A DNA stretch of 64,000 nucleotides from Crocinitomicaceae bacterium. Lineage in GTDB: Bacteria > Bacteroidota > Bacteroidia > Flavobacteriales_D > Crocinitomicaceae. The stretch is taken from the NCBI GenBank assembly GCA_029252405.1, contig JAQXBM010000007.1, positions 1 to 64,000 on the forward strand, in the 5' to 3' direction. The position numbers and the translations under genes are program-made. Under the pieces are notes generated by a model. That model did not search any database, had not been told where the DNA came from, and saw nothing but the letters and a program-made list of their open reading frames with translations. Positions within the stretch are counted from its first letter, which is position 1, and every line of letters starts with the position of its first letter. Below, piece by piece: positions 9,312-49,191 of the stretch.

Positions 9312-10205
9312 ATGAGAAAAGCGATTATCGACATGGGTACGAATACCTTCAATCTGCTAGTGGCAGATGTCGACGAGCGTTCATTCAAGAGCATTTATTC
9401 TACCAAAGAACCCGTTCTTCTCGGAATGGGAGGAATCAATGATAATCGGATTGCAGACGATGCTATGGCTAGGGCAATGCTCGCATTGCAGAAATTCACG
9501 AAAACCTGTGACGCCTTCGAAATAGATCGCGAGAATATTAGAGCGTTTGGAACGTCTGCCCTGCGTGGAGCGGAAAATGCGTGCGCGTTTACAGCCAAGG
9601 TGAAAGATGTATTCGATGTTGATGTGAGCATCATTTCAGGACAAGAAGAGGCGAATTTCATTTATCAAGGCGTGAAATTGAATCACGATTTTGCCTCTCC
9701 TGCTGTTATCATGGATATTGGTGGAGGAAGTTCTGAGTTCATTCATGCAAACGCAAACGGGATTATGCAGATGCACAGTTTGGATATCGGCGTATCTCGT
9801 GTTTATCAGCAATTCGATTTCCCAGAAACCTATTCAACCGAACTTCAGAATGCCATCTTTTCTTATTTCGATCAATGCGAGGACAAAGCAATGGATTGTA
9901 TTGAAGCAGAAACATTAATTGGTGCTTCGGGCAGTTTTGAGACCTTTTACGAAATGATTTTCGAAAAGAAATGGGAAGTGAACCGCGAAGTGACCGAATT
10001 GCCTATGAGCGAGTTAAGGCGGATTTTAAACTGGTCCGTCCAATCGAACCAAACCGAACGAAACAAACATGTTTGGATCACGCAGATTCGAAAAACGATG
10101 CTCCCAATTGCCGCTCTGCAAGTACTTTGGGCGCTAAATAGAATCAAGGCGTCGCGTGTTATTTTGTCTCCATATTCGTTAAAAGAAGGCGTTTTGTACG
10201 AGTGA
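9312..10205 (+). CDS. Ppx/GppA phosphatase family protein
   Basis: DMGTNTFNLLVADV N terminus, SGQEEANFIYQGV, MDIGGGSSEF. Confidence 0.9.
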   Translation: MRKAIIDMGTNTFNLLVADVDERSFKSIYSTKEPVLLGMGGINDNRIADDAMARAMLALQKFTKTCDAFEIDRENIRAFGTSALRGAENACAFTAKVKDVFDVDVSIISGQEEANFIYQGVKLNHDFASPAVIMDIGGGSSEFIHANANGIMQMHSLDIGVSRVYQQFDFPETYSTELQNAIFSYFDQCEDKAMDCIEAETLIGASGSFETFYEMIFEKKWEVNREVTELPMSELRRILNWSVQSNQTERNKHVWITQIRKTMLPIAALQVLWALNRIKASRVILSPYSLKEGVLYE

Positions 10206-10247
10206 TTTCCGATTTCAGCAAAGTCTTTTAACAGTTTCTACTCGCTC

Positions 10248-10313
10248 ATTTAGAGTGTTTTCCGCACGCAAAATGCTGAAAATATACACACTTCTGTATT
10301 TATATTTGTATCA
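10248..10313 (+). promoter_or_regulatory. upstream element copy A1 with TAnnTTTG-like -7 box (TATATTTG, 10301-10308)
   Basis: Ungapped match (about 51/66 positions by eye) to copy A2 at 10570-10635, with identical 53-nt spacing from ATTTAGAGTG to TATATTTG. Confidence 0.65.
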
Positions 10314-10404
10314 AGTCAATTACGAAAAACACGACATCATTTCTACTACGTCGTTAGCTCTCAAACGAGAAGACTGATTCTAGAAATGATCCGAGATATA
10401 AAAT

Positions 10405-10439
10405 ATTAAACGCGCTATAAGTAGAGTAGTAGTAAGTAG
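10405..10439 (+). repeat. 35-bp 3'UTR repeat, copy B1 (ATTAAACGCGCTATAAGTAGAGTAGTAGTAAGTAG)
   Basis: 34/35 identical to 12625-12659. Confidence 0.97.
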
Positions 10440-10442
10440 AAA

Positions 10443-10478
10443 GACAAACCCCTCGCAATATTTTGCTAGGGGTTTGTC
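10443..10478 (+). terminator. strong hairpin, likely intrinsic terminator
   Basis: GACAAACCCCT...AGGGGTTTGTC perfect 11-bp inverted repeat with additional inner GCAA/TTGC pairing. Confidence 0.8.
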
Positions 10479-10569
10479 GCGTTTAAAAGTTTGTTTTGTT
10501 CTGATTTCGAACTGAAATGCAGCGCTAATTTCAGTTTATTGTCTGGCATACGATGGTTTTTACTCCTTG

Positions 10570-10635
10570 ATTTAGAGTGATTTCCGAAAGCTAAATGCTG
10601 AAAATGCACAGCGGTCGGTCAGTATATTTGTCTCA
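10570..10635 (+). promoter_or_regulatory. promoter region copy A2 with TAnnTTTG-like -7 box (TATATTTG, 10623-10630)
   Basis: Matches copy A1; lies immediately upstream of the 10665 gene. Confidence 0.7.
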
Positions 10636-10664
10636 TAATTAATCACTAACCAAAATTATTCACA

Positions 10665-12629
10665 ATGAAAAAAGCACTTATTTTTTCTGTCTCGTGTTGT
10701 CTGCTATTGGCATCATGTGAAAACACAACAGATAATGCAACGAACGAAGAAGACGCGAAGCTATTTGCGACTATCGACGTTCGAAAGGAGTTCCAGCAGA
10801 AATCACCCCTTGCTGAAGAGATTAATATTGAATTATTAGAAAAGCCATTAGCGAATGGAGAGAACATTAAACTGACCGCTTCCTTCAATGATGACGATGT
10901 CAAAAGAATTGAAGAGGAGTTTTTGGCCCTTGAATTTGGAAAGGAAAAAGTTGTCCTGCGAGATGATGGAAAAGGAGCGGATGCCAAAAAAGGAGATGGC
11001 GTGTTCTCGGTTCATTTAAAAGAAGATATTGACGAACTCATAAAGGAGTTAGACATAGCGAAAGAGCAAAAGCTATCCGGACGCGGTCCAAGTTTCAATG
11101 CACGAAGTATAGTTGAAGCAGACCAAAAGGGATTGAAGAATTTTAGTCCTAAAGATTTAAAGACACGAAAAAAGTTGAGAATTCCGGCTTTCATTTTTCC
11201 ATTTCCAAAAGGAGGAGGTTCTTCATCTGCGATAAGCTTCCCGATCTTAGCAGATAAGTCTTTAATGATTACGGATGTCGGAGTTGTTGAAGATCCTACA
11301 AGAACATTCAGACCATGTGATATGAATGCAGCGACGGCTGGAAATCCAAATGGTGTTTGGACTTTCGGAGAGTTGATGCGACAAATGGCTTCACCAAGTC
11401 CAGGTGCAATCGCGAATGATGCCAACACAATTAACTTCATTCTGGATTGGCTCCAAACATGGAGCGTTCTGAATACGGTCAACGGTGACAATGTGCCACC
11501 GAGAGGTGTAAATGGCATTATTGCCGATTGGCAAGCACTAAGTGACCAAGCTAATTCGGCCGCAGGAAACCCAATTGGTCCGCTATTATTGGAGCGCATT
11601 CCATTTAAGTTAACGGCAATTGTAAATCGATTGGATCTTCGCGGAAACTCGGGATATGGATTTAGCGACGCCGGTGAGGGACGTCTAGTTTACTGTCTCT
11701 TGACTACGAATTGCGACCCATTGGAGTTCAATGTTATTTTCGAATACGGAATCAACAAGAAAACATGTCCATCGGTAAAAGCTTTCGGATTAGAATGGGC
11801 GAACTTGAGTGATCCAGCCTTGGCACTCGGAAGTCCAGCATTTAATGGACAGTTGGAAGCGATTACGAATCAATTCACCTTATCAGGAACGAATACATCG
11901 AAGCCAAACCAAAATTCGATCAACCAGGTTCGAACAAATGAGTTTGAAATTGGTACGCCTTGGGAATTGCGTGAGTTCAACTTAACTGGATCTGGAAAAT
12001 TGGAGATAGTTGATGTGAAAATGGAACCAGCTCGAAAATACAATACCAAAAATGCAAACCCTCAAACGCAGTTGTTGGCGAATTATGCCAATGCAAATGA
12101 ACCAGACATCCTTGCGAACAATTACGAAATTCCGTTAACATTCTCTGGTGCGGACTTCAGAGGAGGAACTTCGCATACCCAATTTCCACCAACAGGACCG
12201 GTAAACGTGCCAGGAAACACGCCACATCATTGGGATGGACGAACAGCAGCGCCATTCTTAATCAATAGTGATGATGCCCGACACATTTTGTCATTAAATA
12301 CCTGTAGTGGTTGTCACGGAGGAGAAACACAAACCTTTTTCACCCACATCGACCCAGCGCCATTTGGAACAGCAGCAGGTTTATCTGGATTCTTGACAGG
12401 TACTCCAGGACGAGGAGGCGCAGTTGATGCAGATGGTTTAGCAAACAACATCATGACAGTTATTGATCCAGCGGGACGTCCGGCAGGTGCGCCAACCCAA
12501 AGAGGATTCAACGATTTAGAGCGACGAGTTATCGATTTGGATGTGTTGATCAACCAAAATTGTTTTAGCATCAGTGCACTTGGAATTATGCATAAATTGA
12601 CATTTAAACCTTTAGTAATGACCCATTAA
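10665..12629 (+). CDS. hypothetical lipoprotein with a CXXCH motif
   Basis: Lipoprotein signal (MKKALIFSVSCCLLLASCEN); CSGCH heme-c-like motif in ILSLNTCSGCHGGETQTFF; promoter and terminator present. Confidence 0.75.
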   Translation: MKKALIFSVSCCLLLASCENTTDNATNEEDAKLFATIDVRKEFQQKSPLAEEINIELLEKPLANGENIKLTASFNDDDVKRIEEEFLALEFGKEKVVLRDDGKGADAKKGDGVFSVHLKEDIDELIKELDIAKEQKLSGRGPSFNARSIVEADQKGLKNFSPKDLKTRKKLRIPAFIFPFPKGGGSSSAISFPILADKSLMITDVGVVEDPTRTFRPCDMNAATAGNPNGVWTFGELMRQMASPSPGAIANDANTINFILDWLQTWSVLNTVNGDNVPPRGVNGIIADWQALSDQANSAAGNPIGPLLLERIPFKLTAIVNRLDLRGNSGYGFSDAGEGRLVYCLLTTNCDPLEFNVIFEYGINKKTCPSVKAFGLEWANLSDPALALGSPAFNGQLEAITNQFTLSGTNTSKPNQNSINQVRTNEFEIGTPWELREFNLTGSGKLEIVDVKMEPARKYNTKNANPQTQLLANYANANEPDILANNYEIPLTFSGADFRGGTSHTQFPPTGPVNVPGNTPHHWDGRTAAPFLINSDDARHILSLNTCSGCHGGETQTFFTHIDPAPFGTAAGLSGFLTGTPGRGGAVDADGLANNIMTVIDPAGRPAGAPTQRGFNDLERRVIDLDVLINQNCFSISALGIMHKLTFKPLVMTH

Positions 12630-12659
12630 ACGCGCTATAAGTAGAGTAATAGTAAGTAG
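12625..12659 (+). repeat. 35-bp 3'UTR repeat, copy B2, overlapping the stop codon of the upstream gene
   Basis: ATTAAACGCGCTATAAGTAGAGTAATAGTAAGTAG; one mismatch to copy at 10405-10439. Confidence 0.97.
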
Positions 12660-12665
12660 TTAGAT

Positions 12666-12706
12666 AAGTCGAACCTCTGGCAGTTATGTCAGGGGTTTGT
12701 CTTTTT
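12666..12706 (+). terminator. intrinsic terminator
   Basis: AACCTCTG...CAGGGGTT stem followed by a T-rich run. Confidence 0.75.
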
Positions 12707-12822: not shown

Positions 12823-14001
12823 ATGAGTAAAATCTTAATTATCGATGACGAGCGCGCAATCCGAAGAGCGTTGAGAGAAATTCTTGAATTTGAAGAGTTT
12901 GAAGTGGACGAAGCGGAAAACGGAAGAGAAGGATTAGACAAAGCGAAAGCCGATAATTACGACATCATTTTTTGTGATATTAAAATGCCAGAGTTAGACG
13001 GAATGGAAGTTCTTGATGGCCTGTTAAAAGCGAAAGTTGACTCTCCGGTAATCATGATCAGTGGTCATGGAAACATTGAAACAGCTGTTCAAGCGATCAA
13101 AAAAGGAGCTTTTGATTTTATTGAGAAACCCTTGGATTTGAACCGTATTTTGGTGACTATCCGAAACGCGAAGGACAAAACTGTTTTAATTGAGGAAAAG
13201 AAAGTCTTGAAAAAGACGGTGAAGCGTTTCAAAGGATCATCCATTATTGGTGAAACACCTGAGATCATCCAAATCAAAGAGATGATTGAGAAAGTGGCAC
13301 CTTCGGATGCTCGTGTACTCGTTACGGGTGAGAATGGAACAGGTAAAGAATTGGTCGCTCGCTCATTGCACGATCAAAGTTCTCGCAGTTCTATGCCATT
13401 TGTCGAAGTGAACTGTGCTGCCATTCCAGCTGAGCTGATTGAAAGTGAATTGTTCGGACACGAGAAAGGTGCATTTACATCAGCCGTTAAGCAGAAGAAG
13501 GGAAAATTCGAATTGGCATCAGGAGGAACACTCTTCTTGGATGAGATTGGAGACATGTCTGCAAGTGCGCAAGCAAAAGTTCTGCGTGCTTTGCAAGAAA
13601 ACGTGATTCAACGTGTTGGTGGAGAAAAAGATATCAAGGTGAACGCGCGAGTGGTTGCTGCGACAAATAAAAACCTTCGTGAAGAAATCGAAGAAGGGAA
13701 TTTCCGTGAGGATTTATACCACCGTTTGGCCGTAATTTTAATGCACGTTCCAGCGTTGAATGATCGTCGTGATGATATTCCAATGTTAGCCGAGCACTTT
13801 ATGACAATGGTTTGTGCCGAACACGGAATCGCTAGAAAAACACTAGACGAAAGCGCATTGATGGCTCTATCCAAAACTGATTGGTCAGGAAATATCCGTG
13901 AATTGCGCAACATCATCGAGCGTCTCGTGATTTTATGTGATGAGGTTGTATCAGGTGATGATGTGAAGTTGTTCGCGAATCCACGAACGGCTAAAAAATA
14001 A
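12823..14001 (+). CDS. sigma54-dependent response regulator (NtrC family)
   Basis: Receiver domain (ILIIDDERAIRRAL...DIIFCDIKMPELDG), GAFTSA motif, AAA+ Walker motifs (GENGTGKE, GGTLFLDEIGDM). Confidence 0.93.
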   Translation: MSKILIIDDERAIRRALREILEFEEFEVDEAENGREGLDKAKADNYDIIFCDIKMPELDGMEVLDGLLKAKVDSPVIMISGHGNIETAVQAIKKGAFDFIEKPLDLNRILVTIRNAKDKTVLIEEKKVLKKTVKRFKGSSIIGETPEIIQIKEMIEKVAPSDARVLVTGENGTGKELVARSLHDQSSRSSMPFVEVNCAAIPAELIESELFGHEKGAFTSAVKQKKGKFELASGGTLFLDEIGDMSASAQAKVLRALQENVIQRVGGEKDIKVNARVVAATNKNLREEIEEGNFREDLYHRLAVILMHVPALNDRRDDIPMLAEHFMTMVCAEHGIARKTLDESALMALSKTDWSGNIRELRNIIERLVILCDEVVSGDDVKLFANPRTAKK

Positions 14002-48189: not shown

Positions 48190-49191
48190 TCAATTTGTTT
48201 GGTTATATCGGATTCGTCTAACAAGTTTCAGACTTGGTTTTTCGACCAGAATGTAGAATAAATATGAACCGAAATAGGCAACTGCAAATGCTCCTAGAAT
48301 TAGGGCGAATTTGAAGAGTGCCGAGTCGGCGTAGCGCAGGGTAAAGTAAAGAAACCAGCCCCCAAGTATGCCGTGCATCAGGTAAAAGCTATAGGATGTG
48401 ACCCCAGCGAATTCAAGTAGTTTGCTCTTTGTTTCTACAAATAGGATTACTGGAATTGAGATTAACGGTATCACGCAGTAAAACAGTGCTTGATTCAGGA
48501 AGAAATCAGCAGATCCAATACCAATAATAGCTAACAATTGGACAGCGGAATAAGTCTTCTTGCTGAATAAAATCAAGGCGATCCCAACCGCGAAATATGA
48601 AGTGAATTCAATAAAGGTTCCTCGCAAGTCCCAGAAATAGTTGGCGCTCAGTGACGCCACCACCAAAAACATTAATGAGGCAAATGGATACTTTCTGATC
48701 AGCATAAAGGCGAACCCAAGGAATAAATAGAATTGAAACTCAACACTCAATGTCCAAAAAATAGGATTGTACCATTCTTCGCCTACAAAGTTTGCCGTAA
48801 GCGTAAGGTTGGCAATGAGCTGTTTAGCGGAGAACAGCACTGGTTCGCCCAAATACACTTGGAATAGTGCGTTTATTGCAAGAATGCATAAAACACAAAT
48901 GATCATCGGAACCATGATTCTCACGATTCGCTTCAAAATGAAGGGAATGAAAAGCGAAAGCGAATAGTTGTAACGCTCAAGATGCATGTACATCACATAT
49001 CCAGAGATGATAAAAAACACGCAAATTGATCCGTGAATAAATGGATCAACAAATTCCAAAATAGCATTATCAGGACTAACAAAAGAGCCGTATTGATTTT
49101 CGAAATGCAAAAAATGGTACAAAGCAACTATGAACGCGCAAACACCACGAGCACTATCAAGAATAGCTATTTTGGGAGTTGATGTCGACAT
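48190..49191 (-). CDS. acyltransferase family 3 protein
   Basis: Multi-TM; RGVCAFIVALYHFLHF; CVFFIISGYVMYMHLERY. Confidence 0.88.
   Translation of the reverse strand: MSTSTPKIAILDSARGVCAFIVALYHFLHFENQYGSFVSPDNAILEFVDPFIHGSICVFFIISGYVMYMHLERYNYSLSLFIPFILKRIVRIMVPMIICVLCILAINALFQVYLGEPVLFSAKQLIANLTLTANFVGEEWYNPIFWTLSVEFQFYLFLGFAFMLIRKYPFASLMFLVVASLSANYFWDLRGTFIEFTSYFAVGIALILFSKKTYSAVQLLAIIGIGSADFFLNQALFYCVIPLISIPVILFVETKSKLLEFAGVTSYSFYLMHGILGGWFLYFTLRYADSALFKFALILGAFAVAYFGSYLFYILVEKPSLKLVRRIRYNQTN

Follow-up and report, generated by a model that had tools for sequence, protein, structure and literature searches.

The window, i.e. the whole 64,000-nucleotide stretch of DNA analysed here, carries two similar sequence frames between a ppx/GppA-type phosphatase gene and the gene for a sigma-54 activator response regulator (Table 1). 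Copy 1 holds a predicted small RNA, termed sRNA1, and its promoter. Copy 2 encloses, as the preliminary description of this DNA had already noticed, a 654-aa lipoprotein ORF whose stop codon (the TAA of 10665-12629) lies within the repeat. No Pfam family matched this lipoprotein.

The upstream elements (10234-10313 and 10556-10635, spacing 322) can be aligned without gaps over 80 nt with 76% identity, which confirms and extends the gapless alignment of 66 nt reported before. The downstream repeat (10405-10447 and 12625-12667) comprises 43 nt with 91% identity, and its first 35 nt (10405-10439 and 12625-12659) indeed differ at a single base. By chance, about 1e-9 such pairs of 35-mers and about 4e-11 such pairs of 80-mers would be expected in 64 kb, and none of 100 shuffles contained two core matches. 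In the whole 4.28-Mb assembly, a 19-mer scan with up to three mismatches found exact core matches in copies 1 and 2 only, next to two more matches with three mismatches each. The remaining likenesses to copy 1 elsewhere in this genome are weak.

Hairpin terminators had been proposed after both 35-mers. Hairpins are present in both copies, but the pattern scan accepts only the terminator of copy 2, since the copy-1 hairpin has no clear T run. Likewise, the TAA noticed at the matching place in copy 1 does exist; however, it is not a vestigial stop codon, as the non-coding orthologues have ATTAAA or ATTTAA at this site.

Table 1. Features of the locus and of the sRNA2 regions (positions refer to the window unless a contig is named)
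Feature	Position	Strand	Remarks
ppx/GppA-type phosphatase gene	9312..10205	+	PF02541, E=1.4e-42; constant upstream neighbour of sRNA1 (3/3 genomes)
Copy 1 with promoter	10234-10484		Conserved directly after ppx in G124 and G130
sRNA1 promoter element	10234..10308	+	Block GTTTCTAC..ATTTAGAGTG, palindrome, -7 box TATATTTG; five ungapped 75-nt relatives with fixed spacing
Operator-like palindrome	10258..10282	.	TTTTCCGCA-N7-TGCTGAAAA; about -55 to -31 from predicted start; conserved in five promoters
sRNA1, predicted small RNA	10313..10484	+	Start derived from TAnnTTTG box (-12 to -5; PMC9723704), end set after hairpin
Hairpin 1 of sRNA1	10336..10390	+	Other sequence, same place in relatives
sRNA1 core	10413..10443	+	CGCTATAAGTAGAGTAGTAGTAAGTAGAAAG; 31 nt, invariant, mostly unpaired; identical in three species, flanks variable
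Terminal stem-loop of sRNA1, possible terminator	10443..10478	+	-23.5 kcal/mol, z = -8.0
Lipoprotein-gene promoter element	10556..10630	+	57/75 identical to sRNA1 element 10234-10308; palindrome 10580-10604; -7 box 10623-10630
Lipoprotein gene, 654 aa	10665..12629	+	Lipobox LLASC; one CXXCH motif (CSGCH)
Second copy of sRNA1 35-nt 3' segment	12625..12659	+	Stop codon and 3' UTR of lipoprotein mRNA
Lipoprotein-mRNA terminator hairpin	12668..12701	+	z = -7.1; CGAACC..TTTG TCTTTTTC by pattern scan
Sigma-54 activator response regulator gene	12823..14001	+	Directly after sRNA1 in G124
sRNA2	G000:C71:21564-21720	-	L144; divergent from TetR-SulP, convergent with LuxR-type response regulator gene
sRNA2 orthologues	G130:C58:35681-35838 (L135); G135:C215:642-798 (L150); G152:C88:10744-10896

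Conservation and structure of copy 1

A DNA search with 10206-10500 as query against 34 genomes of the genus resulted in two strong matches to copy 1, one on contig C10 of G124 (76% over 253 nt, E=1e-42) and one on contig C66 of G130 (72%, E=1e-15). ppx precedes sRNA1 in the window and in both relatives alike. The gene order in G124 is ppx, sRNA1 and the response regulator (sigma-54 type), which follows 100 nt after sRNA1, while other genes are found downstream of sRNA1 in G130. Copy 1 thereby recurs in both relatives without any adjoining lipoprotein gene. On the G130 contig, a nucleotidyltransferase-like gene and others lie after sRNA1 and the response regulator is found on another contig; given this arrangement, breaks at the boundary downstream of sRNA1 seem to have happened on more than one occasion. 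In G152, ppx and the regulator (92% identical) are adjacent and sRNA1 is missing between them. An apparent frameshift, which may stem from an assembly error, truncates the reading frame of the G124 ppx (1866-2678) shortly before its end.

With up to three mismatches, the core pattern occurs in 3 of 240 genomes of the family, namely in this genome, G124 and G130 (3 of 34 within the genus). The carriers of sRNA1 are therewith three species only of this aquatic, Fluviicola-like group, two of them available as metagenome assemblies. In the named genomes, the exact promoter pattern gave no match and the core pattern recovered the two relatives. A covariance model (R2) scores the three sRNA1 orthologues with 157-195 bits and the copy-2 tail with 68 bits. 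The next best score of 34 bits was taken as chance, and the R2 matches at E 0.003-0.04 in other genomes were treated in the same way. The comparison of copy 1 with Rfam, including Flavo-1, matched no family: at gathering as well as relaxed thresholds only chance scores and nothing above the cut-off were obtained.

In the 5' leader of sRNA1, the stretch TCAACGACAAAGAA is conserved in part. In all three species, and despite its differing sequence, hairpin 1 folds better than shuffled sequences (z = -3.7, -3.6 and -2.3). No full-length complement of the core was found in this genome. The terminal stem-loop consists of 16-nt arms with 94% complementarity and a 4-nt loop, and the two- and one-sided changes present in the relatives preserve the pairs. 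Covariation across three sequences is suggestive support for this structure. The copy-1 stem-loop is a strong hairpin but has a weak T run, so that the position of the 3' end is uncertain. There is no ORF common to the three orthologues, whose frames are very short (up to 17 aa).

Since copy 1 is conserved, shares no ORF between species and does not resemble the lipoprotein gene, it is better regarded as an independent sRNA gene than as a gene-less remnant. Judged from sequence comparison, we consider it probable (roughly 75%) that copy 1 constitutes an sRNA gene in its own right, non-coding and about 170 nt long, that the lipoprotein promoter carries the same operator, so that both would be switched together, and that the end of the lipoprotein ORF has been joined to a second sRNA1 tail. 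An sRNA sharing its regulation with the downstream mRNA had been one of three options put forward originally, and it is the one with comparative support: promoter, structure, invariant core, the place after ppx and the palindrome at the G130 lipoprotein gene all agree with it. The putative sRNA1 represents a new family of small RNAs, of a familiar kind and with an unusual shared tail. What appeared to be a gene-less remnant would therewith become a new sRNA family in a group where few have been described.

Promoter type and a possible regulon

The 75-nt promoter element with TATATTTG at fixed spacing is present in three species. Its palindrome ends 18 nt before the TAnnTTTG box, and TTTTCCGCA occurs only once in the window, at this very place. 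In Flavobacterium, the TAnnTTTG box is located at -12 to -5 (PMC9723704), which places the start of sRNA1 near 10313. The lipoprotein promoter of G130 contains a palindrome of the form TTTTCCG-N11-CGGAAAA together with a GTTTTTAC..ATTTA block. The common promoter type of sRNA1 and the lipoprotein gene is best read as an indication of co-regulation.

According to the mechanism we propose, a housekeeping-type (TAnnTTTG) promoter beneath a palindromic operator would drive a transcript of about 170 nt, composed of an unstructured 5' leader, one hairpin, the 31-nt single-stranded conserved core and the terminal stem-loop. The core would most likely be the working part, either by pairing with target mRNAs or by binding a protein, and sRNA1 would most likely act in trans. 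The lipoprotein promoter, carrying the same operator, would switch its gene together with sRNA1. Duplex energies of the core against 43 translation starts revealed no significant target; the best predicted pairing (48190-49191, minus strand, -25.6 kcal/mol) was non-significant after multiple tests. A function of the core as an Hfq-binding ARN site was dropped, because none of four genus genomes gave a match to Hfq (PF17209), while control genomes such as E. coli and B. subtilis were positive.

A profile built from five promoters (R1) matched the divergent intergenic region on contig C58 of G130 twice (E=0.0013 and 0.011). The other R1 matches in the genus are mostly weak and several are located inside genes, and only the C58 region was taken as real. 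This region is flanked by a TetR-SulP operon and by a second predicted non-coding transcript, sRNA2. The orthologous region of the genome studied here (contig C71, TetR 84% identical) contains three TTTTCCGCA half-sites, compared to a single one in the 64-kb window. With a query of 157 nt, sRNA2, which has a terminator, shows 84-97% identity to its orthologues in G130, G135 and G152. G139 and G122 share its 3' end, again next to the HisKA_3/LuxR-type two-component genes, and TTTTCCG half-sites are found there 22 bp apart. No Rfam family reaches the cut-off for sRNA2. Immediately ahead of the terminal hairpin, sRNA1 and sRNA2 both possess AGTAGTAG (AGUAGUAG); as an 8-mer, this is weak evidence. 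In G124, which carries sRNA1, neither TetR nor sRNA2 gave a match.

The half-sites at the TetR-SulP/sRNA2 region hint at a small regulon. The LuxR-type response regulator is the first candidate for the regulator and TetR the second. The case for TetR is weakened in two ways: the TetR homologues have a AATAGTATTACTATT-type palindrome of their own adjoining the -7 box, and the TTTTCCG sites of sRNA2 persist in G139 and G122, where TetR-SulP is not beside it. Upstream of the TetR genes (L144, L146, L148, L149), the AATAGTATTACTATT-type palindrome touches the TATATTTG box and is distinct from the TTTTCCG sites; it is likely the TetR autoregulatory site. It is also conceivable, but in our opinion unlikely, that sRNA1, the lipoprotein mRNA and sRNA2 form one regulon, in which the lipoprotein mRNA gained the sRNA1 core as a regulatory 3' UTR (there AGUAAUAG). 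If this were true, a single signal would free the core module from two sources, with the effect that a common RNA-binding protein is titrated or common targets are repressed, and this without a recognisable Hfq. The shared operator-like sites make a regulon directly testable.

Origin of the doubled 3' end

The lipoprotein has a single close orthologue, encoded on contig C164 of G130 (70% identical) at a different locus, where it sits behind what reads as a thioredoxin-like gene. The 35-mer is absent after the stop codon of this orthologue and the sequence there is unrelated. Since the G130 gene possesses the operator without the tail, the two are separable: the operator appears to travel with the lipoprotein, and the tail to belong to sRNA1. 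The order ppx-sRNA1-response regulator in G124 in turn marks the lipoprotein gene as a newcomer in the genome studied here.

The loop motif CTGGCAG.TATGTCAGGGG is common to the terminators of copy 2 and of the G124 sRNA1, while the loop of copy 1 differs; despite this loop, the overall identity to G124 is slightly higher for copy 1 than for copy 2. The sequence after the copy-2 tail matches the G124 spacer between sRNA1 and the regulator at 76 of 96 positions, compared to a weak match (49/78) for the sequence after copy 1. Because the downstream sequence and the loop of copy 2 both match G124, it is most likely the right end of the original sRNA1 locus that now terminates the lipoprotein mRNA. 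The shared 3' end is best read as the result of a local event, by which a second copy of the sRNA1 tail would have become attached, at ATTAAA, to the end of the lipoprotein ORF, providing stop codon, 3' UTR and terminator in this lineage. The doubled 3' end still requires one local event, either a duplication or an insertion. Within the mRNA, the core may be a mere passive tail, or it may supply the core module a second time. With the empty site in G124 and the lipoprotein gene elsewhere in G130, this would be a well-bracketed case of an sRNA tail entering an mRNA.

There is a nearly even chance that the whole sRNA1 gene was duplicated in tandem and that the interior of the second copy was then replaced by the lipoprotein ORF via the similar promoters and CATTAAA. 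Such a duplication would be a route to the explanation preferred here and not its denial. The spacer of the copy-2 promoter resembles the G124 sRNA1 promoter (10/17, shuffle p=0.002), whereas it shows no such likeness to the G130 lipoprotein promoter (3/17). However, in the upstream half and the TTTCCGAA variant it is the G130 lipoprotein promoter that the copy-2 promoter resembles (20/24; 53% bootstrap), and trees of the 75-nt promoters do not decide whether the copy-2 promoter stems from the sRNA1 or the lipoprotein lineage.

A less probable origin is the insertion of an element with the lipoprotein gene at the 3' end of sRNA1 via the 35-nt segment. In this case the 3' end would have been restored on the left (copy 1) and the original one retained on the right (copy 2), and the likeness of the promoters would reflect shared regulation only. 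This possibility, too, bears on the origin of the doubled tail and not on the sRNA status of copy 1. The direct repeat corresponds exactly to the sRNA1 3' end, repeat and terminator are present on both sides, the downstream sequence of copy 2 matches G124, which has no insert, and the G130 lipoprotein gene is located at another locus. Other genes also occupy the boundary after sRNA1 in G130, with the regulator on another contig. Against an insertion speak the size of only 2.2 kb, the single copy of the segment in G130 and the viral contigs, which gave no match; moreover, the lipoprotein ORF is alone between the repeats, with neither an integrase nor another mobility gene. The earlier idea of a mobile or recombinogenic frame is unsupported as far as a repeated element is concerned, with at most two copies per genome and none in viral contigs.

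It is quite improbable that sRNA1 is a cis-acting leader or attenuator of a downstream gene instead of a free RNA. The weak T run after the copy-1 hairpin and the position of sRNA1 100 nt before the regulator in G124 would fit a leader, but each of the three genomes has a different gene downstream, and a separate promoter precedes the copy-2 gene. That copy 1 is what remained after the deletion of a first lipoprotein gene, a gene-less product of tandem duplication as once suggested on account of the shared frame and the TAA at the same place, is contradicted by G124 and G130, where copy 1 with its invariant core is conserved without a lipoprotein gene, and hardly deserves credence, since the interior of copy 1 holds no gene residue and resembles the lipoprotein gene and its G130 orthologue in no more than an 11-nt chance match.

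Comparison with known systems

Integrative elements are known to insert at the 3' ends of sRNAs, tRNAs and tmRNAs. As in these, a direct repeat of the 3' end of an RNA gene flanks a newly arrived gene at our locus. However, the case described here is without an integrase, is very short and was found once.

Response regulators of the GacA/NarL-type drive sRNA genes such as rsmY and rsmZ (Rsm titration). In a similar manner, sRNA2 adjoins a LuxR-type two-component system, and TTTTCCG half-sites are present in both sRNA promoters. In contrast, the DNA site is a different one, and the regulator in our case is a candidate.

The Rfp sRNAs of Flavobacterium psychrophilum, for instance Rfp18, are independent non-coding transcripts with a median length of about 176 nt, several of which are structured and conserved in related species (PMC9723704). 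In these respects, the predicted sRNA1 resembles them, but Rfp18 is widespread in its genus, whereas sRNA1 occurs in 3 of 34 genus genomes.

FopS and GibS from Bacteroides thetaiotaomicron combine a conserved single-stranded seed with a terminator, with canonical promoters for FopS (PMC11697453). The FopS family is multicopy, is bound by RbpB, carries its seed at the 5' end and has, according to the paper, been deposited in Rfam; one of its members is embedded in the 3' end of an mRNA in Bacteroides (PMC11697453). Unlike FopS, sRNA1 matches no Rfam family, its core adjoins the terminal stem-loop, and there is one sRNA gene with one 3'-UTR copy instead of many copies. The two systems nevertheless have in common that they belong to the Bacteroidota, that a conserved single-stranded segment is combined with a terminator and that one member resides in an mRNA 3' end. 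By analogy, the 3' end-derived FopS member may therefore serve as a precedent within the phylum for the sRNA1 core in the lipoprotein mRNA.
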